Positions 40,553 to 58,728 of a stretch of DNA of 64,000 nt are shown here, one piece after another (position 1 is the first letter of the stretch; each line of letters opens with the position of its first letter). Source of the stretch: Phyllobacterium endophyticum (GTDB lineage: Bacteria; Pseudomonadota; Alphaproteobacteria; Rhizobiales; Rhizobiaceae); NCBI RefSeq assembly GCF_003010935.1, contig NZ_PGGN01000008.1:1-64000 (forward strand), read 5' to 3'. Below the pieces are notes generated by a model. That model was given only the letters and a program-made list of their open reading frames with translations, did not search any database and was not told where the DNA came from. Made by a program: the position numbers and the translations under genes.

Positions 40553-40933
40553 CTATTCGGCCTCCAGCCTATTCAGCACCTCGCGTGCAATCCGAAAGCT
40601 ATCGACCATCGCCGGCACGCCACAATAGATACCCACCTGCAGGAGAATCTCCTTGATCTCATTCTTGGTGAGGCCGTTATTGATGGCACCACGAACATGC
40701 GCAGCCAATTCATGCGGACGGTTGAGGGCGCTGATCATGGCGAGGTTGATGGTGGACCGCGTCTTGCGGTCAAGTCCTTCCCGCCCCCAGACTTCACCCC
40801 AGCAATAAGTGGTGACAAGCTGTTGCAGGTCCTGCGTGAAATCGTCTGCCTCGGCTAGTGCCTTGTCTACATAGCTGTCGCCCAGTGTTTCCCGGCGTAT
40901 ACGAAGGCCTTTGTCATATGTAGTCTGGTCCAT
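40553..40933 (-). CDS. carboxymuconolactone-decarboxylase-family protein (PcaC-like)
   Basis: A 126-residue CMD-fold protein. The order RRETLGDSYVDKALAEADDF, CWGEVWGREGLDRKTRSTINLAMI, HVRGAINNGLTKNEIKEILLQVGIYCGVPAMVDSF matches PcaC-like decarboxylases. In contrast to AhpD, no CxxC pair is seen at the helix start, so peroxidase activity is unlikely. It is the last gene of the minus-strand cluster, 15 bases behind the aconitase gene. It could remove CO2 from a beta-keto or lactone intermediate of the pathway. Confidence 0.88.
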   Translation of the reverse strand: MDQTTYDKGLRIRRETLGDSYVDKALAEADDFTQDLQQLVTTYCWGEVWGREGLDRKTRSTINLAMISALNRPHELAAHVRGAINNGLTKNEIKEILLQVGIYCGVPAMVDSFRIAREVLNRLEAE

Positions 40934-40948
40934 GTGTATGTCTCCTGT

Positions 40949-43693
40949 TCAATGGTTGGAAGCATGCTTGTGCATATCGGTGGACGGTGCAAGTTCCGCC
41001 TTGATAATCAATTGGTTGAGTATGTAGGGCATGATGCCGCCGCTGCGCATATATTCCACCTCTGCGGGGGTATCGAGACGAAGAATGAGAGGCACTTCTG
41101 TGGTTTCGCCGTTGGCTCGGTGAATGACCAGTTTCAACGGCTGGCGCATTGGAGCGGCCTCATTCAGACCGACAATGTCGAAACGTTCCGATCCATCAAG
41201 GCCAAGATCGGCGACATCGACAGGCTGCGTAAACTGGCAAGGCATCACGCCCATTCCCACCAGATTGTTGCGGTGAATACGTTCGAAACTATTGGCAATA
41301 ACCGCACGCACACCGAGCAGCCGCGTTACCTTCGCCGCCCAGTCACGGGCGCTGCCTGTACCGTATTCGTGACCGGCTATGACGATCAGTGGCACAGCGT
41401 CTGCCTGATAGCGTAGAGCAGCATCATAGATGCTCATGCGTTCCCCACCCGGTTGGTAGGCGGTAATTCCGCCCTCCACGTCCGGTACCATGAGATTGCG
41501 TAGGCGCTGATTGCCAAATCCCCCCCGCATCATGATCTCATGGTTCATGCGACGCGCGCCGAAATTATTGAAATCCGCAGGCGCGACATCGAGTTTCGCC
41601 AGATAGCTTCCCGCAGGAGAATTTTGCCGGATGCTGCCGATCGGGCTGATATGATCAGTCGTCACGGAATCACCCAATATTGCCAGAACGCGAGCGCCGA
41701 TGATCGGCTTGAGAGCCGATTCCGAAAGTTCTGGTGCAAGGAATGGCTGCTCTTGCAAATAAGTAGAATCATCTTGCCAGGGAAAGAGTTCGCCGGTGAT
41801 CTGTGGGATTTTCTTCCAGTTCGGATCGTTTGCGGCAATGTCTCCAGCATAGGTCTCGCGATAAAAGGCGGGGTTTGCAGCAAGAGCTTGCGCATCGGCC
41901 AATTCTTCGGGTGTCGGCCAGATGTCCCGAAGATAGACCGGCAGCCCATCCGTTCCCAGCCCAAGCGGTTCCGTCGCAAGATCGATATTGACACGCCCGG
42001 CGATCGCAAACGCTACGATCAACGGCGGGCTCGCAAGAAACGAAGCGCGAACAGCGGGGTGAACGCGTGCTTCGAAATTACGGTTACCCGAGAGTACTGC
42101 GCAAGCCACCACGTCGCGTTCAGTGATCTGGGTTTCGAGTTTGGAATCGATCGGTCCTGATGCGCCGACACATGTAGCGCAGCTATAGCCTGCAACCACG
42201 AAGCCGAGAGCGTCGAGGGACTTTTGAAGATGGGTTGCTTCGAGATACCGGCTGACCACTTTCGATCCGGGGGTGAGCGATGTCTTTACCCACGGCCGGG
42301 CTTTCAGTCCGAGTCCTACCGCTTTCCTGGCTACAAGACCTGCGGCCAGCATTACGCCCGGATTTGACGTATTGGTGCAGGAAGTGATGGCGGCGATAAC
42401 AACGTCCCCATCGGATACGACATGATCGCGTTCATCGTGGTAAGCCGCATCGCCGCCATTAAACGTCTTTGTTTTGCCATAGCCGCCATTGGTGATTGGC
42501 GCGTGCAACAGTTCGTCGAAACGAGGCTTCAAATCGTCAAGCGGCACACGGTCTTGCGGTCGTTTGGGACCGGCTAGGTTTGGTACAACGTCTGCCAGAT
42601 TTAATTGCAGTTCTTCGGAATAATCGATCTCGCCTGGTTTAACTGCGCCGAAACAACCCTGCGCACGGTAGACTTTCTCGACCGCGCGGACCTTTTCTTC
42701 CGTGCGCCCAGTCTGCCGAAGATAGCTGCAAGTCTGCTCATCAACAGGGAAATAGCCGATGGTGGCGCCATATTCGACAGCCATGTTGGCGATGGTGGCT
42801 CGGTCCGGCACGCTTAGCTTTGCCACACCCTCACCAAAAAATTCAACGAACTTTCCAACGACCTTGGCCTTGCGCATCATCTCAGTGACATGCAGGACAA
42901 GATCCGTCGCGGTCACGCCGTCCCGTAGCCCATTCGTCACATGGACACCCACCACATCTGGCGTCAGGAAGAAGACGGGCTCGCCCAGCATAGCGGCTTC
43001 GGCCTCAATCCCGCCGACACCCCAACCGACTGTTCCCAGCCCCGCTATCATGCAGGTATGAGAATCCGACCCAACCAGGGTATCCGGATAGCAAACGCCA
43101 TCCTTGACGAGGAAACCCGGCGCAAGCAATTCAAGATTCAGTTGATGCAGGATACCGGCTCCCGGTGGAAAGAGCCGGATACCGTCATAGGCTTGCATTG
43201 CCCATTTGACGAAGCGGTAGCGTTCGGCATTACGCTTTATGTCAAGCTCAGTATTGAGCTGAAGGGCATCCGGCCTGGCGTGGTAATCGACGGTCAAAGT
43301 ATGGTCGAGCGCCATGTCCACGGGCACTTTCGGACCTACCGTCCCGGCGGGATATCCCAGCCTCATCATTGCACCGCGAATGGCCGTCAAATCGCCGAGC
43401 AAGGGAATACCGGCGGCACAATTCAACACGATACGCCCGATGGTGAATGGTATTTCCTCTTCCCTCAGTGCGTTCGGTTGCCAATTGGCGAGGCGCTCGA
43501 CATGCTCGGGCAGAACTTTTCTACCGTCCAAATTGCGCAAAACAGATTCCAGCACGATCCGCAGCGATATAGGCAGTCGCGATACCTTGCCTATTCCATG
43601 CTCTTCCAGAGCGGGAACCGAAAAGAAATGCAACTTTCCATCAGGCGCGACGTCAATCTCGCGTCGCGTGATTTCATGCAGCGACACGCTCAT
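40949..43693 (-). CDS. acnA: aconitate hydratase, AcnA type
   Basis: A 914-residue monomeric aconitase with the full set of parts: GSDSHTCMIAGLGTVGWGVGG, the first cluster Cys in ITSCTNTSNPGV, the other two in AGYSCATCVGASGPI, then the swivel domain (VLAILGDSVTTDHISPIGSI, GHEYGTGSARDWAAKVTRLLGV). Canonical enzymes have GCTTCIGNSG, so Ser, Ala and Ala replace Gly, Thr and Asn around the cluster, which may shift substrate range. ATG 43693 overlaps the MmgE/PrpD stop by ATGA. In this cluster it may hydrate or isomerise cis-aconitate or a homologue, rather than being the TCA enzyme. Confidence 0.9.
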   Translation of the reverse strand: MSVSLHEITRREIDVAPDGKLHFFSVPALEEHGIGKVSRLPISLRIVLESVLRNLDGRKVLPEHVERLANWQPNALREEEIPFTIGRIVLNCAAGIPLLGDLTAIRGAMMRLGYPAGTVGPKVPVDMALDHTLTVDYHARPDALQLNTELDIKRNAERYRFVKWAMQAYDGIRLFPPGAGILHQLNLELLAPGFLVKDGVCYPDTLVGSDSHTCMIAGLGTVGWGVGGIEAEAAMLGEPVFFLTPDVVGVHVTNGLRDGVTATDLVLHVTEMMRKAKVVGKFVEFFGEGVAKLSVPDRATIANMAVEYGATIGYFPVDEQTCSYLRQTGRTEEKVRAVEKVYRAQGCFGAVKPGEIDYSEELQLNLADVVPNLAGPKRPQDRVPLDDLKPRFDELLHAPITNGGYGKTKTFNGGDAAYHDERDHVVSDGDVVIAAITSCTNTSNPGVMLAAGLVARKAVGLGLKARPWVKTSLTPGSKVVSRYLEATHLQKSLDALGFVVAGYSCATCVGASGPIDSKLETQITERDVVACAVLSGNRNFEARVHPAVRASFLASPPLIVAFAIAGRVNIDLATEPLGLGTDGLPVYLRDIWPTPEELADAQALAANPAFYRETYAGDIAANDPNWKKIPQITGELFPWQDDSTYLQEQPFLAPELSESALKPIIGARVLAILGDSVTTDHISPIGSIRQNSPAGSYLAKLDVAPADFNNFGARRMNHEIMMRGGFGNQRLRNLMVPDVEGGITAYQPGGERMSIYDAALRYQADAVPLIVIAGHEYGTGSARDWAAKVTRLLGVRAVIANSFERIHRNNLVGMGVMPCQFTQPVDVADLGLDGSERFDIVGLNEAAPMRQPLKLVIHRANGETTEVPLILRLDTPAEVEYMRSGGIMPYILNQLIIKAELAPSTDMHKHASNH

Positions 43694-45084
43694 GCAGACC
43701 TCGCCAAAGTAAAATTTTCTGTAAGCAGCCGCACAGATGGCAAGGCAGCCAGTGTCCACACGCGTTCGGTGAGCAGTTCCGCCTGGTCATCGGCAAGCCG
43801 GCCTCGCGTCAGAAGCTTGAACTTGGTGCGACTTTCCTCCTCCGTACAGGGATCGGCAGGTGTGCCATGGCAATCCAGCACCATTCCTTCGCTAGTACGG
43901 CCATCGGCAAAATCCAGCGATACGCTCGCCCCATATTGCGCGGGACAGACGGCCTCGATACGGGGATCCACAACGATTTCGATACGGCCCGCAAGCTCCC
44001 TGATGACGGGGTCATTGACCGCTGAAACAGCGAACATATCCGGGTCCCGGGGATTGCCGGTCAGGGCCAGAGCGGCGCAATAAGGAATGCTGTATTGTGC
44101 GCCCATCGTATCGATGGGCGCTGGCGAGCTATTGTTCTGAGCGGCATATTTGCTGACTCCGATACGAACGTTGGAGATTTCACGCGGCGACAGCGGTTCG
44201 GCTCCCCTCAACTCAAGCAAGAGTTGTACGGCCGATTGAATCCAGCCGCAGATCGGGAAAACCTTGAACCATGTTTGGGTGATCGCCCAGTTTGCACCGA
44301 GTCCCCGGCTCAATCGTTCCGGTGCGGCACTACTGCCTCCGAATACCTCGATCAGCCCGAAATGGCTGTCTATGGCAAAAGGGGGTCCCAGAAAACCTCG
44401 CTGCGCTAGCTGGCCCATGCGGACGCCAGCCTCGGCGGCACGTCCAAGGTGCAACCGCTTTACCATGCCGCCGCCCTTGCCAATGGAAAAGCTCTTGATA
44501 CCCGAGGCCGCCGAACAGCTTAATCCAATCGCCGAAAAAAGCTGGTCGCGGGAGAGATTCATCACAATTCCTGCTGCGGTGGCTGCGGCCACGGGCGCTG
44601 CCAAGCTGGTAACATGGAAGCCCCGGCGGGACGGTTCGGCCCCGACGGCAAGACCGATGCGGTGCATTACTTCATAGCCGGCAATAATTGCCTCCAGCAG
44701 CTTTGCGCCGCTGGCATTGACCGCCTCAGCCGCGGCAAGAGCAGCCGGGATTACCGCAGCACCGGGATGGGTGACCGATTCCGCAATGAGATCATCAAGC
44801 TCATAACCGTGAATGGCGGTGCCATTGCACAAAGCGGCACCTGGAGCCGCCACGCGGTCGGCGCGACCAATAATAGTGCTTGCTCCCTGCGTTCCTTCGG
44901 AAACGATCTCATCGGCAAGAATGCGCGACCACGGCTGAGTTGCCCCGAAAACACCGCAGCCCAGCGCTTCGAGCAGACAAATTCTCGCTTGCTCCGTTAC
45001 CGCCGCCGGAATTTCATCAAGGTTGATATCCTGCACGAACTCAATCAATTCGTGCGCATGACTTCGTATCGCCGCGCCGTCCAT
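43690..45084 (-). CDS. MmgE/PrpD-family protein
   Basis: A 464-residue member of the 2-methylcitrate dehydratase/cis-aconitate decarboxylase superfamily. Visible: EALGCGVFGATQPWSRIL, NGTAIHGYELDDLIAESVTHPGAAVIPAALAAAEA (the conserved HxxDDD-like region, here HGYELDD), FHVTSLAAPVAAATAAG, KVFPICGWIQSAVQLLLEL. It has no cofactor. I prefer the ATG at 45084 (AAAGGA seven bases before) over the one at 45114, which lacks a box. It probably dehydrates or decarboxylates a tricarboxylate. It is translationally coupled to the aconitase gene. Confidence 0.85.
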   Translation of the reverse strand: MDGAAIRSHAHELIEFVQDINLDEIPAAVTEQARICLLEALGCGVFGATQPWSRILADEIVSEGTQGASTIIGRADRVAAPGAALCNGTAIHGYELDDLIAESVTHPGAAVIPAALAAAEAVNASGAKLLEAIIAGYEVMHRIGLAVGAEPSRRGFHVTSLAAPVAAATAAGIVMNLSRDQLFSAIGLSCSAASGIKSFSIGKGGGMVKRLHLGRAAEAGVRMGQLAQRGFLGPPFAIDSHFGLIEVFGGSSAAPERLSRGLGANWAITQTWFKVFPICGWIQSAVQLLLELRGAEPLSPREISNVRIGVSKYAAQNNSSPAPIDTMGAQYSIPYCAALALTGNPRDPDMFAVSAVNDPVIRELAGRIEIVVDPRIEAVCPAQYGASVSLDFADGRTSEGMVLDCHGTPADPCTEEESRTKFKLLTRGRLADDQAELLTERVWTLAALPSVRLLTENFTLARSA

Positions 45085-45118: not shown

Positions 45119-46477
45119 TCAAAGCCGGATAGTGCCGATGCCGTCCTCTATATCGATCATTGTGCCAAGCGGCGCGGAAAGCGTTTTGAGGCGATTTAAT
45201 ACGATCTCGGCAGTCTCCCGATCAGCCAAGAATGGGCGTCCCTCGGTCAAAGCATGAGAGCCTTTGCCGGTCCGCCGGGTTATCGTTCCGCCGGATGTCG
45301 CCTGTCGGCCCATTTCGATGGGATGAAAACGAATTTCACGCAGGCCCTCGCCGTCACAGGCCATTTCGATCACCGCCGAACTCCACCAAGGAGCAAGATC
45401 GAGACCGGGATCCAGCGGATAGGCGGCTGGCGTCAGCGTTGGTAACCGGTCGACATCGTGATCCCAGGCTTCATAGCTGTCGTAAGGTACCCGGCGCACA
45501 AACTCAGACTGGGCAATGAAATTGCCGATCCCGTAGAAAATCGGCTTACCACGATAAATCTCCACTCCTAGAGTCTTATGCCAGCCATGACCAATATAGA
45601 TGTCCGCTCCCGCATCGATCGCCGCTTTGGCAAACTGCCGTGCAAATCCCGGAGGGTTATCGCTTCGCGGCCCTTCTGAAATATTGAAGTGATGGGCGAC
45701 CATCACGAGATCCGCCATGGTAGCCGCCTCGTCTATGGATCGTAGGTTTCCTTCGAGGTCGCGGGGATGACACTCGCTCGAAACCTCGAAATTTTCTCCG
45801 CGAATAAATCTTGCGGATGTACGCGTCGATTGATCGCCGGGGAAATTGAAGGCAATCTCCTCCTCTCCCTCATCACTCTCACGCTTGACGCCTATGCCAA
45901 GTAGGCTGGCAACCCGTTGCAATTGTTCGGCGGCGCTATCGTCGACCTGATATTTCATCGTCACCCGTAGCGGATTGACCCCCGGGCGCCCAAGCAACTG
46001 CGCCTTTGGATGGCTGGCCCACTCATACGCCTTGTTGCCGGAACTGACGGAAACAAGGCCTACCCTGCCCTTTCGCGTTTCGAGATAGACTGGATCACGG
46101 GCTTCCTCGAGATCCCGCCCCGTGCCCGCACATGCAAATCCGGCTTCGCGGCAATGCCGGATTGTCGCTAGCAATCCAAGCGATCCGAAATCGAAGCTGT
46201 GGTTATGGGCAAGCGAAAGCAGATCTATGCCGGCGGACTTGAGTTCGTCTGCAAGCTTAGGTTCCGCGATCATGTAGCTCGCCACCCAATCCCCGCGCGA
46301 CGCCCAATCAAGATCATCTGCATCTCCGAAATTCATTTCCAGATGCGCATAGGTGACATCCGAATTACGGAGCAGATCGAGGACGCCGAGAAATTCGGGT
46401 TCCTCATAAACCGAGAACGGACGAGAAATCATGCACTCCCCCGCCAGCACCACTTTCCATTCTCTATTTTGCGACAT
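45119..46477 (-). CDS. CapA/PgsA-like metallophosphatase-fold protein
   Basis: A 452-residue CapA-family protein. It has LAGECMISRPFSVYEEPEF in place of the usual GDIM, then YAHLEMNFGDAD, LSLAHNHSFDFGSLGLLATI, MADLVMVAHHFNISEGP and GADIYIGHGWHKTLGVEIYRGKPIFYGIGNF. Known members belong to poly-gamma-glutamate export or are annotated hydrolases of the calcineurin-like fold. No signal peptide or membrane anchor is visible, so a cytosolic enzyme is more likely here than capsule synthesis. It lies between the ThDP decarboxylase and MmgE/PrpD genes. The specific activity is unknown. Confidence 0.82.
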   Translation of the reverse strand: MSQNREWKVVLAGECMISRPFSVYEEPEFLGVLDLLRNSDVTYAHLEMNFGDADDLDWASRGDWVASYMIAEPKLADELKSAGIDLLSLAHNHSFDFGSLGLLATIRHCREAGFACAGTGRDLEEARDPVYLETRKGRVGLVSVSSGNKAYEWASHPKAQLLGRPGVNPLRVTMKYQVDDSAAEQLQRVASLLGIGVKRESDEGEEEIAFNFPGDQSTRTSARFIRGENFEVSSECHPRDLEGNLRSIDEAATMADLVMVAHHFNISEGPRSDNPPGFARQFAKAAIDAGADIYIGHGWHKTLGVEIYRGKPIFYGIGNFIAQSEFVRRVPYDSYEAWDHDVDRLPTLTPAAYPLDPGLDLAPWWSSAVIEMACDGEGLREIRFHPIEMGRQATSGGTITRRTGKGSHALTEGRPFLADRETAEIVLNRLKTLSAPLGTMIDIEDGIGTIRL

Positions 46478-46492: not shown

Positions 46493-47098
46493 CTAGTAAT
46501 AAGCGCGCTCCGCCCCGAGAAGATTTTCGCGAAACCGGTCCTTCAGATAGGCACCGTCACGCACGCGGATAGACATGGGATAGCGCTGGGTATTGACCTT
46601 GATGACACCGAAAAATGGTCCCTCGGCACCGAAAAGCTTTGGCACCATAGCTTCAAGCTCTGCTTCGGTATAAATGGTTTCGCTTTGGGCGAAGCCGCAG
46701 GCTTGGGCTACCGCACCAAGGCTGACGCCGCGTTGAGTATGCGTCGCCTGCATTCCTGTTTCGCTATAGTGCTCGTTGTCTATAATGGCGATGGCGAGAT
46801 TCCTGGGGTGTTGCGCCCCAATCGTCGCGAGAGCTCCGAGACCCATAAGCGCCTCTCCATCCCCTGTCATGACCAGCACCCGGCGTTCCGGCTGGGCAAG
46901 TGCCAATCCAAGTCCCGTCATGGCCGCCGCACCCATGCCACCCCAGAGGCAAAACGTGTTGGGATGATCAACTGTACCCGCATCGTAGGTGGTTGATCCA
47001 AGTCCCGTGACCATGAGCGTATCGCCTCTTTGCGCGACAATGGTCCTCATGACGTAACGTCGATCGAGCGTGCCTTTTTTCCTGTCGGTCATGATCAT
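46493..47098 (-). CDS. ThDP-dependent decarboxylase, beta subunit (ComE-like)
   Basis: A 201-residue PP domain. The ThDP motif MTGDGEALMGLGALATIGAQHPRNLAIAIIDNEHYSETG (GDG, then N) is complete. The rest (GMGAAAMTGLGLALAQPERRVLV) matches the C-terminal half of sulfopyruvate, phosphonopyruvate and benzoylformate-type decarboxylases. With the alpha subunit it forms the ComDE type, which decarboxylates 2-oxo acids with a second acidic group. ATG 47098 overlaps the alpha stop (ATGA). The real substrate is not sulfopyruvate by necessity; an oxaloacetate-like acid is equally possible. Confidence 0.85.
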   Translation of the reverse strand: MIMTDRKKGTLDRRYVMRTIVAQRGDTLMVTGLGSTTYDAGTVDHPNTFCLWGGMGAAAMTGLGLALAQPERRVLVMTGDGEALMGLGALATIGAQHPRNLAIAIIDNEHYSETGMQATHTQRGVSLGAVAQACGFAQSETIYTEAELEAMVPKLFGAEGPFFGVIKVNTQRYPMSIRVRDGAYLKDRFRENLLGAERAYY

Positions 47099-47625
47099 TT
47101 ACTCCAGTCCTTGAAGCCGAGGAGGCGCTGGCTGAGAAGAACCGCTACAACGCAGTTAGAAGAAAAGGCCAGTTGGGACGCGGCATAGACGACCTGCCCA
47201 ACCTCATCCGCGTGATTGGCGCGCTGGACATAGACCCCCATATCCTGGAAAACCCGTTCGGTGTTTTGACCCATGGGCAGTTGCCACGGGTTGAACTCAC
47301 CCCACTCACCACGCATCGTGACGATCATAAGCAAGGGCATGCGGCAGTGAAGTGGAACGCTCAGCATGTTGATGCAGTTTCCCGCACCTGATGACTGCAT
47401 TAAGAGAGCGCCGCGGTCACCGCCGAGCCAAGCCCCGGCAAGCATTGCGATGCCTTCTTCTTCCGTCGTCAGCGAGACTGCTGTGATATCCGGATCGCCT
47501 GTACAGCTCGCTATGAGTTCGATATGTCCGGCATCGGGAACGTAGGCGACTTGCTTCACATCCGCTTTCTTGAGCGCATCAAAGATATCATCTGGCCAGA
47601 CGCGGGATATAGATTCGTGTTTCAC
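47095..47625 (-). CDS. ThDP-dependent decarboxylase, alpha subunit (ComD-like)
   Basis: A 176-residue Pyr domain, starting at GTG 47625 with GGAG five bases upstream; an ATG at 47688 is also open but lacks a box. Landmarks are IFDALKKADVKQVAYVPDAGH, then SLTTEEEGIAMLAGAWLGGDRGALLMQSSGAGN, where the Glu of TEEEG contacts ThDP. It is the partner of the beta subunit with a 4-base overlap. The pair likely decarboxylates a 2-oxo acid generated by the aldolases. Confidence 0.82.
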   Translation of the reverse strand: MKHESISRVWPDDIFDALKKADVKQVAYVPDAGHIELIASCTGDPDITAVSLTTEEEGIAMLAGAWLGGDRGALLMQSSGAGNCINMLSVPLHCRMPLLMIVTMRGEWGEFNPWQLPMGQNTERVFQDMGVYVQRANHADEVGQVVYAASQLAFSSNCVVAVLLSQRLLGFKDWSK

Positions 47626-47729: not shown

Positions 47730-48725
47730 TTAGAGCTGGTTAGCGACGCCGGATTCTTTGATCACTTGTGTCCATTTCTTGATGTCTCCCTCGATCTGTT
47801 TGGAGAACTCTTCCGGGGTATTGCCGACCAGAACCGCACCTGTCGGCTCAAACTTGCTGCGGAATTCCGGATCGTCGATCATGGCCTTGGCGCCATCGTG
47901 GATTTTATTGATGATCGCCTTATCGGTGCCTGCAGGAACCAACAGACCATACCAGAGATCCGATTCAAAGCCGTCCAGGCCAGGCAATTCGGCAACCGCC
48001 GGTGTATCTGGCAAGGATGCGTTTCGCTTGAGACTGCTGACAGAAAGCGGACGAAGCTGGCCCTGCTTGATGTATGGCGAGGCGCTCAGGATGGACACGA
48101 ACAGACAATCGATATGGCCGCCAAGCAGCGCCGTGATCGATGAACCGGTTCCCTTATAAGGCACATGCGTAATATCCAGACCCCCGCGAGCTTTCAACAT
48201 TTCCAGCGCCAGATGGGCGCCCCCACCGACGCCAGATGAACCGCAGCCGAGCTTACCGGGGCTCTTCTTCGCCATCTCAATGAATTCCTCCATTGTCTTG
48301 GCGGGGGACGAGGGCGGCACGAGAAACACAAACGGCAGGGCCGAAAGCATCGAGACCGGCGCCAGATCCTTTACGGGGTCATACTTGACTTGGTCTCCAA
48401 ACAGCTGAGGATTGATGACGATAGTGGCATTGGTCGTCAGAAGCAGCGTATAACCATCTGGCTTGGACTTTGCCACGATATCGGTGCCTAAATTCCCATT
48501 GGCTCCGGCCTTATTCTCAACAAGAACCGGATTGTTGTTCCACAGGCCTTCAAGCTTATGCGCCAACTGGCGGGAGACGATATCGGTCCCACCCCCAGCT
48601 TCGAATGGAGTGATGATCTTGACGGTCTCACTGGGATAGTCCGTTGCTTGGGCAAAGGCCGGCACGGTGTAGGCAGTAAATACGGTTAGTGCCAGACTGG
48701 CGATTTGGCTGCGATAGGCAAACAT
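47730..48725 (-). CDS. tctC: TTT-family substrate-binding protein (TctC/Bug)
   Basis: A 331-residue periplasmic binding protein of the tripartite tricarboxylate transporter. The signal peptide (SLALTVFTAYTVPAFAQA) is followed by VKIITPFEAGGGTDIVSRQLA, the Bug signature that holds the ligand carboxylate, and VENKAGANGNLGTDIVAK. The start is ATG 48725 with GGGAGGAATAC before it. The membrane parts are encoded about 4 kb upstream (tctA, tctB), behind the LysR and isomerase genes. Such proteins bind di- or tricarboxylates. Confidence 0.93.
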   Translation of the reverse strand: MFAYRSQIASLALTVFTAYTVPAFAQATDYPSETVKIITPFEAGGGTDIVSRQLAHKLEGLWNNNPVLVENKAGANGNLGTDIVAKSKPDGYTLLLTTNATIVINPQLFGDQVKYDPVKDLAPVSMLSALPFVFLVPPSSPAKTMEEFIEMAKKSPGKLGCGSSGVGGGAHLALEMLKARGGLDITHVPYKGTGSSITALLGGHIDCLFVSILSASPYIKQGQLRPLSVSSLKRNASLPDTPAVAELPGLDGFESDLWYGLLVPAGTDKAIINKIHDGAKAMIDDPEFRSKFEPTGAVLVGNTPEEFSKQIEGDIKKWTQVIKESGVANQL

Positions 48726-51150: not shown

Positions 51151-52656
51151 TTAGCCTTCCGTCACGGCCTGATCCTTGCGTTTGCGGATCATCGGAAAGA
51201 TCATCATCACCATCAACGCAAACGCAACCGCGAGAAAGATCGCACTGAGGGGCGCGGTTACGAAAACACTGAGGTCGCCATGAGATTGCAGCATTGCGCG
51301 GCGGAAATTTTCCTCCAGCATGGGGCCGAGCAAAAACCCCAGAATAAACGGAGCCGGTTCGCAATCCAGCTTGAGGAAGATATATCCGATCAAGCCGAAT
51401 AACGCGGCAAAGGCCACGTCGGTTGAACTCATGTTGACCGTGTAGATGCCGATGCAGGAAAAGACCAGAATAAGAGGGTAGAGCCAGCGATATGGAACCT
51501 TGAGCAGGGTAACCCATACTCCGACTAGCGGGAGATTGAGGATGACCAGCAATACATTGCCGATCCACATGCTGGCGACCAGCCCCCAGAACAATTGCGG
51601 GTGCTGCGTCATAACTTGGGGCCCGGGCGTGATCCCCTGGATCATCAACGCACCCAGTAGCAGTGCCATTGTCGCGCTGCTCGGGATTCCGAGTGTCAAA
51701 GTTGGAATGAAATGCGTTTGCGCAGCGGCATTGTTGGCGGATTCCGGCCCCGCCACACCTTCGATGGCGCCTTTGCCGAAACGCGAGGGATCGGCTGCAA
51801 GCTTTCTTTCGACCGCGTAGGACGCGAAGGAGGCTATGGTTTGCCCGGTTCCTGGCAGAACGCCGAGAATGGCCCCGATGCCGGTACCCCGCAATATGGG
51901 CTTCCAAGATGCTTTCAGGTCTTCCCGCGACGGCATGAGGTTCTTGACCTGTCCAGGCAAGACTTCCCGATGCTGGGTAACGCCCAGATTGGCGATGATC
52001 TCCGAAAATGCGAAGAGCCCCGACGCGACCACGACGAAATCAAACCCTTCTGCAAGGCCGTTCATGCCGAAAGTAAACCGGTCAATGCCGGAGTTCACGT
52101 CCGTTCCAGCCAAGCCGAAAATCGCACCGCAAAACGCCATGCCCATGCCCTTGACCAGGGAGCCACGTACAAGTGCCGAGGCGGAGATGAGTGCCATGAG
52201 CATCAGGGAGCAGTATTCCGCCGCACCGAACTTCAGGGCTACTTCACCGAGTGGTGGCCCGATCAGCGCGATCAGTACAGTCCCAACGCAGCCTGCCACG
52301 ACCGACCCGATCGCTGCGATTGCAAGGGCCGGTCCCGCACGCCCCTGGCGTGCCATTTGATAACCATCAATGCAGGTTACTGCCGATGAGGATTCGCCAG
52401 GAAGATTAACCAAAATAGCCGTTGTAGAGCCGCCATAGGCAGCACCGTAATAAATGCCGGCCAGCATGATCATCGCGCCTTCGGGTGGTAAGCCGTAAGT
52501 GAGCGGCAAGAGCACTGAGATGGTTACGAGAGGCCCAACACCCGGCAATACGCCGATGAACGTACCTAAAAGGACGCCGGCGAAGCAATAGAGCAGGTTC
52601 ATCGGGGATAAGGCGACGCTGAAGCCAAGTGAAAGATGTTGCAGGAGTTCCATCAC
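51151..52656 (-). CDS. tctA: tripartite tricarboxylate transporter, large permease TctA
   Basis: A 501-residue membrane protein with about 11-12 spans. The TctA fingerprints are LLGTFIGVLPGVGPLVTISVLLPLTYGL, GIYYGAAYGGSTTAILVNLPGESSSAVTCIDGYQMARQGRAG and GIGAILGVLPGTGQTIASFASYAVE. It forms the channel with TctB; import is driven by an ion gradient with TctC as receptor. Its start overlaps the tctB stop by ATGA. The downstream prpF gene begins 5 bases after its stop. Confidence 0.95.
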   Translation of the reverse strand: MMELLQHLSLGFSVALSPMNLLYCFAGVLLGTFIGVLPGVGPLVTISVLLPLTYGLPPEGAMIMLAGIYYGAAYGGSTTAILVNLPGESSSAVTCIDGYQMARQGRAGPALAIAAIGSVVAGCVGTVLIALIGPPLGEVALKFGAAEYCSLMLMALISASALVRGSLVKGMGMAFCGAIFGLAGTDVNSGIDRFTFGMNGLAEGFDFVVVASGLFAFSEIIANLGVTQHREVLPGQVKNLMPSREDLKASWKPILRGTGIGAILGVLPGTGQTIASFASYAVERKLAADPSRFGKGAIEGVAGPESANNAAAQTHFIPTLTLGIPSSATMALLLGALMIQGITPGPQVMTQHPQLFWGLVASMWIGNVLLVILNLPLVGVWVTLLKVPYRWLYPLILVFSCIGIYTVNMSSTDVAFAALFGLIGYIFLKLDCEPAPFILGFLLGPMLEENFRRAMLQSHGDLSVFVTAPLSAIFLAVAFALMVMMIFPMIRKRKDQAVTEG

Positions 52657-53102
52657 CAGGGCCTCAACTTCAAGGGAATGTTCAGCCCATAGACGAAGAT
52701 GCCGACTGCGATGAGTGTCAGAACCACGACCATCAGAACGAGTTCGAGCAAGCTGCCTTGACGCCCGCCCAGCCGGCTTGATAGGACCAGCACAATAACC
52801 GCCACGATGAGGCCGGCGGAATCGATGAGCAAACTGAACAGGAGCACGGAAGCGAGTATGAAGATGAGAGGTCGGATCTCCCAGCTGGCGACATGATCCG
52901 ACAGTTCAGGCTTGAGCGTTGATCGAACAAGCATCGTGACGCCGATGAGAGTCATGATCACGCCGAGGATGATCGGAAAATAGCCCGGCCCCATGTTTCC
53001 CGGCGTTCCGAGCTTATAGCCTTGTGCGAGAATTATCGTCCCGAGCCCTATGACGCCGAAGAGCGCGCCACTCAGGAAATCCTTGTTGATCTGAATTTTC
53101 AT
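52653..53102 (-). CDS. tctB: tripartite tricarboxylate transporter, small permease TctB
   Basis: A 149-residue membrane protein with four spans: LSGALFGVIGLGTIILAQGY, GPGYFPIILGVIMTLIGVTML, RPLIFILASVLLFSLLIDSAG and LELVLMVVVLTLIAVGIFVYG, the TctB pattern with the GPGYFP motif. The ATG at 53102 has GGGAGGAACC directly before it. It overlaps tctA by ATGA. The gene follows the aldehyde dehydrogenase gene by 186 bases in the same direction. Confidence 0.93.
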   Translation of the reverse strand: MKIQINKDFLSGALFGVIGLGTIILAQGYKLGTPGNMGPGYFPIILGVIMTLIGVTMLVRSTLKPELSDHVASWEIRPLIFILASVLLFSLLIDSAGLIVAVIVLVLSSRLGGRQGSLLELVLMVVVLTLIAVGIFVYGLNIPLKLRPW

Positions 53103-53288: not shown

Positions 53289-54767
53289 TTATCTTTGCAC
53301 GAAGGGGTTGGCTGAGGGCGCATCGAAGTTCATCCAAACGCTCTTCATCTGTAGATATTCCTTGATCATCTCAGCGCCGTTTTCCCGTCCAATTCCGCTT
53401 TGGCGATAACCGCCAAACGGCGACATAAAACTTGTGGCGCGATAGGTATTCACCCAGACCGTTCCAGCTTTCAACGCCTCCGTCATGCGAATCGCGCGGC
53501 CGATATCCCGGGTCCACACACCGGCAGCGAGACCATAAATCGTCTCGTTGGCGATTCGCACAGCATCCTTTTCGTCCTTGAAACGAATAACCGAAAGGAC
53601 AGGTCCGAAAACCTCTTCCTGAGCGATGCGCATGCGATTTTCGACGTCCTTGAAAATAGTTGGCTCCACAAACCAGCCGTCGCCGCATTCGGGTCGCCGT
53701 CCTGGCTCTCCGCCAATAACAAGCGTGGCTCCCTCTTTCTTGGCGATATCGATGTAGTTGAGCACCTTGGCGTATTGTGGCTGTGTGGTAATGGGGCCGA
53801 CTTGCGTGTCCATGTTGGCGGGATCGCCCATTCTGGCGGTACGCACCTTTTCGATCAGCCGGTCCAGGAATGCGTCATGCACAGAATCCTCGACCAGCAG
53901 TCGTGATCCTGCAAGACAGGTCTGGCCGGTGGCTGCGAAGATCCCGGAAATCGCTCCGTTCACCGCCTCTTCCATATCCGCATCGGCAAATATTATGTTG
54001 GGCGACTTGCCTCCCAGTTCCATCGTAACGTGTTTCATGGTCTGGGCCGCAGCGGCATAGATCCTTTTGCCGGTAGCATCGGAACCGGTAAATGCCACCT
54101 TGGCCACATCAGGATGTTCCACAAGCGGCTTGCCGACTTCATTCCCAAAACCGGTGACGACATTGACAAGGCCCGCGGGGGCGCCCGCCTCTTCGATAAG
54201 CTTGACAAACTCCAATACCGACGCGGATGTGAATTCCGAAGGCTTGATGACCACGGAATTACCCGCCGCCAGAGCTGGAGCGAGCTTCCACGTCGTCAGC
54301 ATAAGCGGCGAATTCCAGGGGGTGATGACAGCAACCACGCCAAGCGGCTCGTAACGCGTATAGTTGAGATAGCCCCTCTTATCGAGGGGCATCACCGCAC
54401 CCTGGACCTTGTCAGCCAGCCCGCCATAATAGTAATACCAGTTGGGAATGTAGCGCAGCTGTGCCAGCATCTCCGCCATCAGCTTGCCATTGTCGCGCAC
54501 CTCGATGGTTGCAAGACGCTCTGCCTCCCGCGCAACAAGATCGCCGATGCGGTGCAGGAGAGCTCCCCTCTCGCTGGCCGTGCTTGAAGCCCACGGCCCC
54601 TGACTGGACACGCGATGCGCGGCCTTGACGGCCATGTCCACGTCATCGGCATTGCCGCGCGCAATCTTTGCCCAAGGCTTGGCTGTAAAGGGATTGATTG
54701 TCTCAAACCATTCGCCACCCCTTGGATCAACGAATTTGCCATCGATATAATGTTGAAAAGTCTGCAT
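53289..54767 (-). CDS. aldehyde dehydrogenase (hydroxymuconic-semialdehyde-type)
   Basis: A 492-residue NAD-dependent aldehyde dehydrogenase: TPWNSPLMLTTWKLAPALAAGNSVVIKPSE, FTGSDATGKRI, the base Glu in MELGGKSPNIIFADAD and the nucleophile in ATGQTCLAGSRL. All key residues are intact. AGAGGCGG precedes the ATG at 54767. Within this cluster it would oxidise an aldehyde formed by the ThDP decarboxylase or by the aldolases. A short relic of a different aldehyde dehydrogenase lies at 58968-59190. Confidence 0.93.
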   Translation of the reverse strand: MQTFQHYIDGKFVDPRGGEWFETINPFTAKPWAKIARGNADDVDMAVKAAHRVSSQGPWASSTASERGALLHRIGDLVAREAERLATIEVRDNGKLMAEMLAQLRYIPNWYYYYGGLADKVQGAVMPLDKRGYLNYTRYEPLGVVAVITPWNSPLMLTTWKLAPALAAGNSVVIKPSEFTSASVLEFVKLIEEAGAPAGLVNVVTGFGNEVGKPLVEHPDVAKVAFTGSDATGKRIYAAAAQTMKHVTMELGGKSPNIIFADADMEEAVNGAISGIFAATGQTCLAGSRLLVEDSVHDAFLDRLIEKVRTARMGDPANMDTQVGPITTQPQYAKVLNYIDIAKKEGATLVIGGEPGRRPECGDGWFVEPTIFKDVENRMRIAQEEVFGPVLSVIRFKDEKDAVRIANETIYGLAAGVWTRDIGRAIRMTEALKAGTVWVNTYRATSFMSPFGGYRQSGIGRENGAEMIKEYLQMKSVWMNFDAPSANPFVQR

Positions 54768-54785: not shown

Positions 54786-55508
54786 TCACTTGTCTACGCC
54801 AACGGAATTCGCAAACCCAAAGGGTTCAAAGTGTTCGATAACTTTTCCCTTGAGCAGTTTGTCGACATCGAGAGCGCCATGGGCCGGGTCGGGAAGCAGA
54901 TCTCTCAGATTGCCCTCCGCCAGCGCATCGGCCTCGGCGCGATCACGTTCCAACGCCTTCATCAGAACCTCGCGGGCCAATAGCCGCGGCACCACCACCA
55001 CCCCGTCATCATCACCCACGACGATATCTCCCGGGATAACCACGATTCCCCCAATATGCACCGGGACATTGATCGATCCCGGCGTAGACTTTTGAGGAGC
55101 GCGGGGCGAAACACCCTGGCAAAACACGGGAAAACGATCCTTGCGGAGCGCCGCCACGTCCCGGATCGAACCGCTTGCGACCACGCCTACTCCGCCGCGG
55201 GCCAGCGCCTGCATCGCACTTCGATGCCCGAAGCACCCCGTATTATGATCGCCATCATCGATAATCAGTACATCTCCGGGCTGGAGCATGTGTACCGCCT
55301 TGTGGGTCATAATGTTATCACCAGGGAAACAGAGCACGGTGAAAGCTGAACCGACCATGCTTATGTTTTCGAATATCGGCCGGATGGTGGATTTCATCGC
55401 CCCATGACGGCCCATCGCGTCGCTCAACGTCGACGTCGCGACAGTTTTGAACTGCTCGATCAAATCGGACGGCGCCCGTTCAAAGCTGTGATAAATATGA
55501 CCATACAT
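54786..55508 (-). CDS. RraA-family aldolase/oxaloacetate decarboxylase (HMG/CHA-type)
   Basis: A 240-residue RraA-like protein with the metal-aldolase motifs: the GDNIMTHKAVHMLQPGDVLIIDDGDHNTG stretch, and GVGVVASGSIRDVAALRKDRFPVFCQG, where Arg-Asp coordinate the divalent metal and enol. Longer than RraA itself, it fits the 4-carboxy-4-hydroxy-2-oxoadipate or 4-hydroxy-4-methyl-2-oxoglutarate aldolases of protocatechuate/gallate pathways. It would yield pyruvate plus oxaloacetate or pyruvate. GAGGATATT precedes the ATG. Ten bases separate it from the HpaI-like gene. Confidence 0.88.
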   Translation of the reverse strand: MYGHIYHSFERAPSDLIEQFKTVATSTLSDAMGRHGAMKSTIRPIFENISMVGSAFTVLCFPGDNIMTHKAVHMLQPGDVLIIDDGDHNTGCFGHRSAMQALARGGVGVVASGSIRDVAALRKDRFPVFCQGVSPRAPQKSTPGSINVPVHIGGIVVIPGDIVVGDDDGVVVVPRLLAREVLMKALERDRAEADALAEGNLRDLLPDPAHGALDVDKLLKGKVIEHFEPFGFANSVGVDK

Positions 55509-55518: not shown

Positions 55519-56235
55519 TCAAATCCCGAAAGGTCGGTCTGTGTTCATGGCGGCGCGGACATTGCCGAGAAAATTTGTGGCTTCATTGCTGACGAACGAC
55601 TTAAGGTGAACGTTGATCCAGCGCAGACCGAGACGCCGATAATCCGCCACGGCATCAAGATCACCCTGAACATTCATGCCAGCGACCCGTCCCGATTTGG
55701 CGATGGTTTCAATAGCCGCTTCGACAGCGTTACGAACGCGAGGATGCCCTGGCTGACCCTTTAGGCCCATAGACTGGGCGAGGTCCACAGCGCCAATATA
55801 AAACACGTCTGCATCTATCGCAGCGAGCATTTGCTGCAGGTTGGAGAGTGCCTTTTTTGACTCGATCATAACGACCAGTAGTTTTTCCTTGTGATCGCCT
55901 TCCCATTGACTGATCCCCTCAATGATCGCCTTGGCTTCCGCCACGCTATCGACATGTGGGGTCTGGATGCCATCCACTCCGCAGCTAAGATAACGGTTTA
56001 TCAGGCCAGGCTCGTTGCTCCACGGTCTCACGACCGAGGCCATGCTGCAGCTTCTGGCCGCACGCGCAAGTTCCTCAACCGCCGCAAAATCCGTACTCGC
56101 ATGCTCACAATCGATAAAAACGGTATCGAATCCCAGCGTACCTATGAATTCGATCAGACGCGGCGTTGGAAAGTCCGGATTGCAGATCGCAACAGTCTCG
56201 CCCGCTCTCAGGCGTTCTTTAAGCCTGTGTTTCAT
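55519..56235 (-). CDS. HpcH/HpaI-family class II aldolase
   Basis: A 238-residue TIM-barrel aldolase. It shows LIEFIGTLGFDTVFIDCEHASTD (catalytic His), RPWSNEPGLINRYLSCGVDGIQTPHVDSVAEAKAI (conserved Arg and substrate loop) and VVMIESKKALSNL with the metal-binding Glu of MIE. The start is ATG 56235 with GGAGGTCAAAG before it; an open frame further upstream overlaps the neighbour. The second aldolase of this cluster, it likely splits or joins a 2-oxo acid and an aldehyde. It overlaps the dehydrogenase stop by ATGA. Confidence 0.9.
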   Translation of the reverse strand: MKHRLKERLRAGETVAICNPDFPTPRLIEFIGTLGFDTVFIDCEHASTDFAAVEELARAARSCSMASVVRPWSNEPGLINRYLSCGVDGIQTPHVDSVAEAKAIIEGISQWEGDHKEKLLVVMIESKKALSNLQQMLAAIDADVFYIGAVDLAQSMGLKGQPGHPRVRNAVEAAIETIAKSGRVAGMNVQGDLDAVADYRRLGLRWINVHLKSFVSNEATNFLGNVRAAMNTDRPFGI

Positions 56236-57161
56236 CCTTTGACCTCCGCAGCGCGAGGCGCCCCGCCGGCGATCACGAAACGGGCGAACTCGGTATGATC
56301 GGCATTGGAACCAGTCCAGGATTGTGCATCCTCCCACAGCCGCAAGCATGAATGGCCAAGTTCCGCGGGAACGTCGCAGGCCCGCGCCACCTCCATGGCC
56401 AGCTTCAGGTCTTTCACCATGAGATCAAGGGAAAAGCCGGAATTGTAGGCCCGGTTAAGGATGTACTGTTTAAACTTTTTCTCCGTGCTGTTGTTGCGCC
56501 CGGTGGATGCATTCAGCACGTCAACCAAAACATTACCATCTACCCCGAAACGCTCAGCTACGAGCAGCGCTTCCGCAGCCGCAGCAAGACCCGCCGCCGA
56601 CACATAATTGTTGAGAACCTTGACCGCATGACCGGAACCGAGAGGGCCGATATGGAAGCGGCGCCCCATTGCGGCGAGCAGCGGGTCGAAATGCTCAGCA
56701 AGCCTGGAGTCGCCTCCCACCATAATTGCAAGCGTAGCCGCAATCGCGCCCGGAACACCTCCTGAAACAGGGGCATCAAGCATCCCGATTTCCCGCTTTT
56801 GAAGTAAGCTGCCGAGTTCGCGCGTTCCGACGGGAGCAGACGAGCTCATATCGATGATGGCGGATCCAGACTTCAGGCCGCGCAGAAGATGATCGCCCTG
56901 CCCTTCGTCTCCCAAGGCAACACGTCGCACAATCCCTCCATCGGGGAGCATAAGCACGACGACATCGGAGCGTTCACCAAGTTCGGCAAGCGAGCCGACA
57001 TTGATGCATTTGCTGGAGACCGCGAATGCCTCTGCCTTTCCGGCATCGGTATCGTAGATGGCTAAGTTCCATCCTGCATTGACCATATGCCCGGCCATGG
57101 GCTGGCCCATATTGCCGATCCCGACAAAGCCGACCCTTGTTGCATTCTGTGAAGCGTTCAC
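56232..57161 (-). CDS. 3-hydroxyisobutyrate-dehydrogenase-like oxidoreductase
   Basis: A 309-residue beta-hydroxyacid dehydrogenase. The cofactor motif is VGFVGIGNMGQPMAGHMVNAG. The substrate motif is DAPVSGGVPGAIAATLAIMVGG. The catalytic Lys is in GSGHAVKVLNNYVSAAGLAAAAEAL. It starts at GTG 57161 behind GGGAGGAACGG. Members oxidise 3-hydroxyisobutyrate, tartronate semialdehyde, 2-hydroxymethylglutarate and similar compounds. Here a hydroxy-carboxylate is plausible. It is 28 bases behind the TcuA-like gene. Confidence 0.9.
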   Translation of the reverse strand: MNASQNATRVGFVGIGNMGQPMAGHMVNAGWNLAIYDTDAGKAEAFAVSSKCINVGSLAELGERSDVVVLMLPDGGIVRRVALGDEGQGDHLLRGLKSGSAIIDMSSSAPVGTRELGSLLQKREIGMLDAPVSGGVPGAIAATLAIMVGGDSRLAEHFDPLLAAMGRRFHIGPLGSGHAVKVLNNYVSAAGLAAAAEALLVAERFGVDGNVLVDVLNASTGRNNSTEKKFKQYILNRAYNSGFSLDLMVKDLKLAMEVARACDVPAELGHSCLRLWEDAQSWTGSNADHTEFARFVIAGGAPRAAEVKG

Positions 57162-57189
57162 GGCCGTTCCTCCCTGCAAACTTTTTGGC

Positions 57190-58728
57190 TCAAGCTTCGG
57201 CAGATGCCGCGGTGTGGATATTCGAAGATGCCTGCACCCTTGCCGCTTCAGCTGCACTTCGCCCGGCTATGCGCCCAAAAACCGCTCCACTCATCAATCC
57301 AGTTGCGCCCGGATAGTTGAAATAGAATAGTCCGCCTACCAGTTCACCGGCCACATAGAGTCCTGGGATGGGAGACTGATTGGTATCTATTGCCTGAGCA
57401 TCGGTTGAAATGCGCAGACCTCCGAATGTGAAGGTTATACCGCAGGTCACGGCATAGGCTTCGAACGGCGCCACTTCGATCGGATTGGCCCAATTGGATT
57501 TCGGCAACGGCAAGCCCTCTGTCTTGCGGCCGTCCTTGACCGTTGGATCGAACGGGACGTCACGGGTGACGGCGGCATTGAATTCACGTACTGTCTTCAG
57601 GAATTCGTCACGGTTGACGTCATCCATCTTGTCGGCCAGTTCCTCCAGGGTATTTCCCGTGACGCGAGTAACGCGCCGCGTGCTGTACTCTGGACGCAGT
57701 AGATGAACGACCGTCGAATCGAAAACCTGCCAGGCAAATTGTCCGGGCTGCTCCAGAATGACCCGGCCGTATTTCGCATAGGTGTAATTGCGGATGTCCG
57801 CACCCTCATCGAGAAAGCGCTTGCCGGTGGCGTTGACCATGATCGACCAAGGGTAGCTGTCGCGCTCATAATCCCCGGTTACGGCCTGATCGCCAAAATC
57901 TTCGGCATAACGCTCCCAGCCCACCGCATGGCAGCCCGACCAGTTACCCTTGGGCTGGACACCGATTTTAAGCGCCATTTCCAACCCGTCTCCGGTATTG
58001 AATTTACTGCCACGCACTTTAGCCAGATCCCAGCCTGGACCGAGATACTTGCTGCGCCATTCACTGTTTGCCTCGAAGCCTCCGCAGGCGAGCACGACGG
58101 ATTTTGCCGCAACCTCCTCTGTGACCCCATCAAACTTGACCACCACGCCTTCAACCCCGGCATCAGAACTGATCAGATCTCGCACCCAAGCATTGTAGCG
58201 TATTTCGATGCCCTTTTTTTCCGCGGCGAGATAAAGCGAATCGACGAGGCCCTGTCCGCCCCCCCAGGCTGCGAGTGTCGCACCGCCCCAGAATTTGAAG
58301 CGACCATCAACCTTGAAGGATTGCCTGCCAAATTGCGGATAAAATTTGACGCCCTGCTTTACCATCCAGTGCATGGTCTCATTGCTCTGACGCACCAGAA
58401 TCTCACACAGATCGGGGTCAGTGCGATTATGCGTTACCCGAGCCATATCGTCGAAGAAAAGGTCCTCCGTATAGCTACCGAAATCGCTATCCATTTCCGC
58501 AGGCGTCAGATCGGGAGACAGGGCGCGGATATCATCCGAGCCTTCATAGGCGAAACGCATCAGCCCTTCAGTATAAGAACTATTGCCGCCCCGTTCAGCC
58601 TTGGGCGCCCGCTCCAGAAGAAGCACGCTCACACCCTGCTCGCGCGCGGACAATGCCGCGCATAGAGCAGCGTTTCCACCGCCGACGACGACAACGTCAA
58701 AATGGCTTTTCTTCATCAACTGTTTCAT
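57190..58728 (-). CDS. FAD-dependent tricarballylate-dehydrogenase-like protein (TcuA family)
   Basis: A 512-residue flavoprotein of the fumarate-reductase/succinate-dehydrogenase fold. VVVVGGGNAALCAALSAREQGVSVLLLERAP binds FAD, GGNSSYTEGLMRFAY lies beyond it, and the C-terminal PIPGLYVAGELVGGLFYFNYPGATGLMSGAVFGRIAG closes the FAD site. No heme or signal peptide, so it is cytosolic like TcuA, which oxidises tricarballylate to cis-aconitate and passes electrons to TcuB. No tcuB gene is present. The start is ATG 58728 with AGGTGAGGAC before it. First gene of the cluster. Confidence 0.85.
   Translation of the reverse strand: MKQLMKKSHFDVVVVGGGNAALCAALSAREQGVSVLLLERAPKAERGGNSSYTEGLMRFAYEGSDDIRALSPDLTPAEMDSDFGSYTEDLFFDDMARVTHNRTDPDLCEILVRQSNETMHWMVKQGVKFYPQFGRQSFKVDGRFKFWGGATLAAWGGGQGLVDSLYLAAEKKGIEIRYNAWVRDLISSDAGVEGVVVKFDGVTEEVAAKSVVLACGGFEANSEWRSKYLGPGWDLAKVRGSKFNTGDGLEMALKIGVQPKGNWSGCHAVGWERYAEDFGDQAVTGDYERDSYPWSIMVNATGKRFLDEGADIRNYTYAKYGRVILEQPGQFAWQVFDSTVVHLLRPEYSTRRVTRVTGNTLEELADKMDDVNRDEFLKTVREFNAAVTRDVPFDPTVKDGRKTEGLPLPKSNWANPIEVAPFEAYAVTCGITFTFGGLRISTDAQAIDTNQSPIPGLYVAGELVGGLFYFNYPGATGLMSGAVFGRIAGRSAAEAARVQASSNIHTAASAEA

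Follow-up and report, generated by a model that had tools for sequence, protein, structure and literature searches.

Gene content of the locus

The 64,000 nucleotides of Phyllobacterium endophyticum DNA considered here (contig NZ_PGGN01000008.1, positions 1 to 64,000; the window) carry a minus-strand run of 16 genes that spans 18 kb (40553-58728), and which a preliminary description made from the sequence alone had taken to be a polycarboxylate catabolic cluster. Taken in the direction of the minus strand, the genes are tcuA-like, a 3-hydroxyisobutyrate dehydrogenase (HIBADH)-type gene, hpaI, rraA, an aldehyde dehydrogenase (ALDH) gene, tctB, tctA, an interrupted prpF, lysR, tctC, the alpha and beta subunits of a thiamine diphosphate (ThDP) decarboxylase, capA, prpD-like, aconitase and a carboxymuconolactone-decarboxylase (CMD) family gene (Table 1). 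Pfam and NCBIfam models agree with the families given in that description, all of them being present where it had placed them; prpF, however, is not intact. The complete importer and LysR regulator that it listed were also recovered: TctA, TctB and TctC each score above the gathering thresholds of their families, which makes a full tripartite tricarboxylate transporter (TTT), and the regulator is CysB-like. Scans of the window for tRNA and Rfam families gave no matches.

Table 1. Features of the window; start codons were chosen by alignment to relatives
Feature	Coordinates	Strand	Basis
TcuA-like FAD-dependent dehydrogenase (predicted to be linked to electron-transfer flavoprotein, ETF)	57190..58728	-	NF006130 596.8 bits (cut-off 369); TIGR02485 283.3 (cut-off 372.55)
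Beta-hydroxyacid dehydrogenase, HIBADH / tartronate-semialdehyde-reductase family	56232..57161	-	Pfam NAD_binding_2 and NAD_binding_11; nearest solved chains 1vpd, 1wp4, 3cky
HpaI/HpcH-type aldolase	55519..56238	-	PF03328; DCEH, VRPW, MIES and GA(V/L)DLAQ motifs kept in the 4 rows compared
RraA-type aldolase, 4-carboxy-4-hydroxy-2-oxoadipate (CHA)-aldolase-like	54786..55508	-	PF03737; NF006731 181 (cut-off 179); TIGR02798 164.4 (cut-off 304.5); Arg-Asp pair in the 5 rows compared
Aldehyde dehydrogenase	53289..54767	-	PF00171 599 bits; 83-88% identity in four relatives
TctB	52653..53102	-	PF07331
TctA	51151..52656	-	PF01970 523 bits
prpF, interrupted by in-frame TAA at codon 23 (51080-51078)	49989..51146	-	PF04303; reading frame inspected
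CysB-family LysR regulator	48913..49860	-	NF009327 392.8 bits (cut-off 402, narrowly missed)
TctC substrate-binding protein	47730..48728	-	PF03401 239 bits; nearest solved chains 2dvz, Bug27
ThDP decarboxylase alpha (Pyr-domain) subunit	47095..47625	-	TIGR03845 109.5 bits (cut-off 147.95); E76 and E78 invariant in 9 aligned rows
ThDP decarboxylase beta (PP-domain) subunit	46493..47098	-	PF02775; TIGR03846 116.9 bits (cut-off 221.5)
CapA-family metallo-protein, related to MslH epimerase	45119..46477	-	PF09587 (PGA_cap); MslH chain E 3.9e-56
MmgE/PrpD-family protein	43690..45084	-	PF03972 and PF19305
Divergent-clade aconitase with altered active-site motifs	40949..43693	-	TIGR01341 1123.3 bits (cut-off 945)
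PcaC-like CMD-family protein	40553..40933	-	PF02627; TIGR02425 149.6 bits (cut-off 155.7, narrowly missed)
TniA/TniB/TniQ transposition element, not part of the pathway	59791..63326	-	PF09299, PF05621 and PF06527; 1.1 kb upstream of tcuA
AbrB-family gene fragment, 62 aa, cut at the left end of the Tni element	59604..59789	+	66% identity to Shinella AbrB

Conservation of the gene set

On plasmid NZ_OZ000533.1 of Shinella sp. WSC3-e the 15 genes other than prpF recur in identical order and orientation with 69-88% protein identity, and the same 15-gene arrangement is found in S. yambaruensis DSM 18801. Bosea sp. 117 also has all 15, at 64-86% identity, in the rearranged order CMD, rraA, aldh, gntR, tctB, tctA, etfB, etfA, tcuA, hibadh, hpaI, lysR, tctC, ThDP alpha, ThDP beta, capA, prpD and acn. 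A metagenome-assembled genome (MAG) labelled Mesorhizobium holds 10 of them (hibadh, aldh, ThDP alpha, ThDP beta, prpD, acn, CMD, rraA, lysR and tcuA), with short-chain dehydrogenase/reductase (SDR) genes interspersed. Since the same 15 genes are ordered alike in Shinella and differently in Bosea, what is conserved is the gene set and not the gene order, and survival of a set through rearrangement is stronger evidence for joint function than a fixed order. A search for the set in other genomes had been proposed as the check on the cluster, and this recurrence in two Shinella, in Bosea and in part in the MAG supports a catabolic cluster of polycarboxylate type. Finding the 15 genes together in both Shinella and Bosea also shows that the grouping did not arise by chance alone.

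The cluster is thinly distributed. When about 85,000 species genomes were scanned with the ThDP alpha subunit, the best 80 of 586 confirmed loci (591 stretches) were kept, so that complete clusters may be more numerous than counted here; at least three of these 80 loci have an alpha subunit of 78% identity or more. Within the family, matches at E<=1e-20 occur in 13 of 394 genomes, and in 2 of the 394, the source genome included, identity reaches 80%. Near the ThDP alpha relatives in the 80 loci, partners of at least 50% identity to window proteins were ALDH (13), CMD (6), HIBADH and aconitase (5 each), PrpD, TctC and LysR (4 each) and TcuA (2), with PrpF at 0. The counts include the three near-complete clusters and omit matches covering less than a quarter of the query, as well as Bosea aldh, rraA and CMD and most of the MAG tcuA, which fall outside the fetched flanks. 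Neighbours were judged mainly by similarity to the window proteins, with dissimilar partners missed; ab initio gene calls, which missed or shortened several known window genes, served only for viewing them.

A separate aconitase clade

The genome encodes a separate AcnA, to which the cluster aconitase is 49% identical. In a tree of 11 hand-picked rows from the loci in hand, the five cluster enzymes and two from betaproteobacterial ThDP loci form one clade (support 100/100), apart from the AcnA of the same genome, Klebsiella AcnA, a Caballeronia enzyme and a second Shinella aconitase, from which four they are set off by 14 fixed differences. With motifs aligned to IRP1, QDFTGVP is replaced by NC(A/M)AGIP in all seven clade members (NCAAGIP, or NCMAGIP in the one from locus L039) and GSSRDW by GSARDW, again in 7/7. 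The AcnA of the same genome, that of Klebsiella and the Caballeronia enzyme have QDFTGVP and the Ser of the second motif. The Gln and the second Ser that are altered in the clade we take to be the substrate-contacting Q72 and S643 of mitochondrial aconitase. The clade retains NRNF, the cysteines of the iron-sulfur cluster and, within GS(S/A)RDW, both the Arg and the first Ser. Because these residues are kept while the active-site motifs are changed, the enzyme should be an active hydratase, and it probably acts on something other than citrate. The clade-specific changes imply that even the seemingly familiar part of the cluster is probably not ordinary tricarballylate or aconitate chemistry.

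Directly beside the cluster on the Shinella plasmid (L002:27980-41347) stand a second aconitase (46%), a phosphoenolpyruvate-mutase-family lyase, an amidohydrolase, an isochorismatase, an ALDH of 58% and an ABC importer, which together make up a further catabolic region with an aconitase gene.

The TcuA-like dehydrogenase and the interrupted prpF

The TcuA-like protein is 83-86% identical to its Bosea and Shinella counterparts and 38% identical to the TcuB-adjacent TcuA of Methylobacterium nodulans, with branches of 2.73 + 1.09 and differing C-terminal motifs; the tree holds 11 hand-picked rows, a Ruegeria relative having been excluded as apparently broken. With 38% identity to a TcuB-linked TcuA, the cluster protein is not a classical TcuA. 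Of two curated TcuA models, it passes one and falls below the cut-off of the other. A search for TcuB (TIGR02484) gave no match in this genome and none among the 16 cluster genes, a weak negative given that the model matched 1 of 14 controls and none above cut-off. In Bosea sp. 117 etfB and etfA lie between tctA and tcuA, and because they adjoin tcuA there, ETF is likely the electron acceptor of the TcuA-like enzyme.

More distant relatives of this dehydrogenase keep varied company. One of 68% in Hydrogenophaga adjoins LeuCD and PrpF. Of two at about 61%, that of Paracoccus versutus (L128:11177-17027) is overlapped by a phosphosulfolactate synthase gene, after which comes an SsuA-type ABC importer, and that of Bradyrhizobium guangxiense (L129:8288-15080) adjoins ETF genes, with an SsuA-type ABC importer and a putative sulfate exporter near and phosphosulfolactate synthase some 9 kb off; these two loci may represent a sulfonated-acid pathway. 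The Ruegeria pomeroyi megaplasmid relative (62%; L127:12001-13465) was matched in two pieces, has no protein annotation and adjoins a ThDP-binding protein. At 48-51% identity, a Variovorax relative lies beside PrpD and TctC and a Deinococcus relative beside TctC.

PrpF had been counted among the pathway genes, a role which its reading frame does not bear out. From the ATG at 51146 the frame can be followed through the N-terminus and its RGGTSKG motif as far as the in-frame stop (Table 1); the residual 355-aa open reading frame (ORF) starts downstream of the stop and is about 40 N-terminal residues short in comparison with the three closest PrpF structures. No second PrpF match was found elsewhere in this genome, nor is PrpF found in the two Shinella, the Bosea or the Mesorhizobium-labelled MAG clusters. 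Outside the cluster, relatives of 37-40% are present in the S. yambaruensis and Bosea genomes, with none in the MAG. Since the frame is interrupted and the genome has no intact replacement, we conclude from the reading frame that, barring an assembly error, PrpF is not a working part here.

Other enzymes of the cluster

The RraA aldolase keeps an Arg-Asp pair that is described for the Pseudomonas putida CHA aldolase (PMC5065237, in the part available); one CHA-aldolase model is just passed and a second is missed. For the PrpD-like protein the nearest solved relatives are B. subtilis IRG1, IDS-epimerase and cis-aconitate decarboxylase, and it is far from the PrpD models. For the ThDP alpha subunit the closest model is that of sulfopyruvate decarboxylase, which for the beta subunit ranks second; both subunits score below the ComDE cut-offs. 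The CMD protein comes close to the PcaC model, narrowly missing it.

CapA was compared with its nearest relative, MslH, a calcium-dependent epimerase that acts beside a carboxylate, according to the available part of PMC10406935. Equivalents of E44, N87, H88, D91, H259 and H295 are kept, D11 has become E and H261 has become N. An identity as an MslH-type epimerase was rejected for it: NF038314 gives 216.2 against a cut-off of 700, and the residue test at Asp11 and His261 fails.

A proposed pathway and its alternatives

We lean towards reading the cluster as an operon that serves the breakdown of a single polycarboxylic acid, aconitate-shaped and not itself an intermediate of the tricarboxylic acid cycle. 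In such an operon, for which we infer every reaction, the order of steps and the substrate from protein families, TctC would capture the acid, TctAB would import it and the CysB-type LysR protein would regulate. The TcuA-like flavoprotein would remove two hydrogens beside carboxylates, passing the electrons to ETF and not to TcuB. The remodelled aconitase and the MmgE/PrpD protein would then hydrate and dehydrate the unsaturated acid to give an isocitrate-like beta-hydroxyacid, while a stereocentre next to a carboxylate may be set right by CapA, MslH-like in action although it fails the MslH tests. Oxidation of the hydroxyacid would fall to the HIBADH-type enzyme, with a carboxylate perhaps being lost through the PcaC-like protein. 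For the 2-oxo acid so formed there would be two exits, one being ThDP decarboxylation and ALDH oxidation to a smaller acid and the other RraA/HpaI aldol cleavage to pyruvate or oxaloacetate and a small oxo-acid. PrpF, broken in this genome, would be dispensable. A larger or branched tricarboxylate, as the preliminary description had suggested, would be compatible with the data.

A further claim, on which we put rather less weight than an even chance, is that the polyacid, natural or man-made, is one not yet recognised and its pathway an undescribed one, and that the aconitase clade is a new functional subfamily which has given up citrate specificity in favour of this acid. The cluster had been called apparently undescribed, and no published description of it was found in the open-licence literature, judged by titles and abstract openings among the matches listed. 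That literature does include, each in the part available, accounts of a tar operon for trans-aconitate (PMC11495376) and of Shinella WSC3-e and acesulfame (PMC11500405).

Several observations weigh against the single-operon scheme. The cluster aconitase passes the curated AcnA model, and the second Shinella aconitase, outside the clade, has PDSSGLP in place of QDFTGVP with GSSRDW unchanged, so change at QDFTGVP is not unique to this cluster. In the stretches of the Mesorhizobium-labelled MAG that were read, the tct importer, hpaI and capA were not seen, and these genes therefore cannot be essential in every host; the MAG TcuA, moreover, has no supported grouping with the other cluster TcuAs in the tree. 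The cluster is rare, with an alpha subunit of at least 80% identity in 0 of 7 other same-genus genomes listed. Promoter-like and terminator-like sites were no commoner than chance in the scan, and the operon is a proposal. The CMD, PrpD, HIBADH and ALDH families have many functions, the sequence does not fix the order of steps, and two simultaneous exit routes look redundant.

That redundancy, of two aldolases as of two exits, would be explained if the locus held two or more independent catabolic modules (ThDP-ALDH and TcuA-aconitase-PrpD, for example) which share an importer or regulator and make no single linear pathway. The 80 loci offer some support, 11 of them having ALDH of at least 50% and no other non-ThDP cluster gene (bar TctC in one), though several are short contigs in which absences are soft. 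We nevertheless regard separate modules as unlikely, for the same ones are joined in differing orders in Shinella and the window, in Bosea and in the MAG, and elsewhere among beta- and alphaproteobacterial loci ThDP is accompanied by aconitase, PrpD, HIBADH or CMD alone.

The resemblance of the ThDP subunits to sulfopyruvate decarboxylase raises the question of whether a sulfonate (or phosphonate) replaces one carboxylate, as in an acid of sulfomethylsuccinate or sulfosuccinate type, with the ThDP decarboxylase and ALDH handling a sulfo-semialdehyde. The CysB-like LysR would fit, as would the phosphosulfolactate synthase genes in 2 of 7 TcuA-relative contexts (Paracoccus versutus and Bradyrhizobium guangxiense) and the carriage of sulfolactate by TTT importers (PMC5812351, part available). 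However, the scores of both subunits lie below the sulfopyruvate decarboxylase cut-offs, and neither the window cluster genes nor the annotated Shinella cluster genes include a recognised desulfonating enzyme or sulfite exporter. Xsc is above cut-off in 2 of 4 genomes, Bosea and S. yambaruensis; the other two, this genome and the Mesorhizobium MAG, have no Xsc above it. ComA exceeds its cut-off in 1 of 4. On this balance a sulfonated substrate seems improbable.

A low probability likewise attaches to a variant lower pathway for the acids of gallate/protocatechuate 4,5-cleavage (4-oxalomesaconate and CHA), in which the aconitase or the PrpD protein replaces the hydratase. CHA decarboxylation followed by aldehyde oxidation is expected to yield citrate, which would suit such a variant. 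The preliminary description had suggested a possible link to 4-oxalomesaconate-type chemistry, which has two points in its favour: the RraA protein, with its Arg-Asp pair intact, scores slightly above the cut-off of the CHA-aldolase model NF006731, and a 56% CapA relative in Agrobacterium lies near a CHA aldolase, a 4-oxalomesaconate tautomerase and two amidohydrolases. Against it, neither the window cluster nor the annotated Shinella cluster has a recognised ring-cleavage dioxygenase, lactonase or known hydratase (the Bosea and MAG flanks were not systematically annotated). TIGR02798, too, is missed by a wide margin, PrpF, the tautomerase homologue, is broken here and not found in the other clusters, and the TcuA-like desaturase would have no obvious role.

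There is very little chance that the locus serves ordinary tricarballylate or aconitate use (TcuA giving cis-aconitate, aconitase giving isocitrate, the remaining genes hitch-hiking), for although the NCBIfam models name proteins TcuA and AcnA and TTT importers take tricarboxylates (available part of PMC5812351), the cluster TcuA is far from TcuB-linked TcuA, a second aconitase with changed active-site motifs would be pointless beside the housekeeping enzyme, and the supposed hitch-hikers are kept wholly or partly in four other clusters. The canonical route was set aside as the principal explanation on the distance of TcuA, the lack of a TcuB match in this genome, a PrpF that is broken and not conserved, and the altered motifs of the aconitase, and with it goes the earlier statement that TcuA, PrpF and aconitase would suffice for tricarballylate or aconitate.

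Of new interest for the aconitate-shaped polyacid that we favour are the aconitase clade and the search for a substrate. Curated models, and the Shinella annotation, say TcuA and AcnA, and the cluster would be filed under tricarballylate use, probably wrongly. An aconitase clade of its own, changed in its active-site motifs and accompanied by a recurring set of partner genes, gives the hunt for a new substrate a definite starting point, and the set is present in Shinella strains that have been sequenced. Should the substrate turn out to be a pollutant or an acid exuded by roots, its breakdown would have a marker in the cluster. If the pathway is indeed an undescribed one, small-molecule catabolism would include a TcuA-type desaturase linked to ETF and an epimerase of CapA type, roles of which no description was found among the papers listed.

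Genomic surroundings

The contig with the cluster is 181 kb long in a genome of 5.5 Mb. Parts of the first 25 kb of the window match Rhizobium, Sinorhizobium and Agrobacterium plasmids (best 97%, no single match covering more than 58%), and because of these plasmid matches the replicon looks like an accessory one of a Rhizobiaceae member. The Tni element, which the preliminary description did not mention, lies between the two arms of a 26-nt imperfect inverted repeat, which are 77% complementary, and the five bases on either side do not match as a duplication. The AbrB fragment lies at its left end; in each of the Shinella clusters a full-length version of this gene comes after CMD, and the remainder of the cut gene was not found in the window. 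A catabolic transposon with the cluster as cargo was considered and is unsupported, since the inverted repeats found enclose TniABQ only.

A neighbouring catabolic cluster on the plus strand (27423-39919) comprises an SDR, a split transketolase (two ORFs), a zinc alcohol dehydrogenase, a branched-chain-type ABC transporter, gluconolactonase-like and periplasmic-binding-like proteins and a GAF-PucR regulator. To the right of the window (L125:1316-8385) is a 2077-aa ORF, AAA-ATPase-like by eye, with a WYL-domain regulator upstream, perhaps a defence island.

Comparison with known systems

Sulfolactate/sulfopyruvate catabolism is laid out with a two-subunit ThDP decarboxylase (ComDE) and an ALDH, as is the cluster. 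A TTT importer is a further likeness, SlcHFG in that system (PMC5812351, in the part available). The cluster differs in that no Xsc or SuyAB was recognised among its genes and its ThDP subunits do not reach the ComDE cut-offs. With the gallate/protocatechuate 4,5-cleavage pathway it shares an aldolase of the RraA-type CHA aldolase kind and the PrpF-type tautomerase family, and it differs in having no recognised hydratase or dioxygenase in the window and an aldolase at the edge of the models.

The TcuABC tricarballylate system of Salmonella (for TcuA see PMC10468695, in the part available) is alike in having a FAD dehydrogenase of the same broad family whose product feeds an aconitase. Here, in contrast, identity to a TcuB-linked TcuA is 38%, there is no TcuB match in this genome, the cluster has a TTT importer, and ETF genes are present in Bosea. 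The 2-methylcitrate cycle, in its AcnD-PrpF or PrpD variants, similarly brings aconitase-, PrpD- and PrpF-family genes together; the cluster departs from it in an AcnD model score of 745.5 against 1419.85, PrpD models far below cut-off, a broken PrpF and no PrpB or PrpC among the 16 genes. Housekeeping AcnA resembles the cluster aconitase in overall sequence, in matching the AcnA model, in the iron-sulfur cysteines and in the first Ser and the Arg of GS(S/A)RDW, whereas the cluster enzyme belongs to its own clade with NC(A/M)AGIP and GSARDW. The enzymes are thus of known families, and the architecture resembles that of other TTT-linked acid catabolons.

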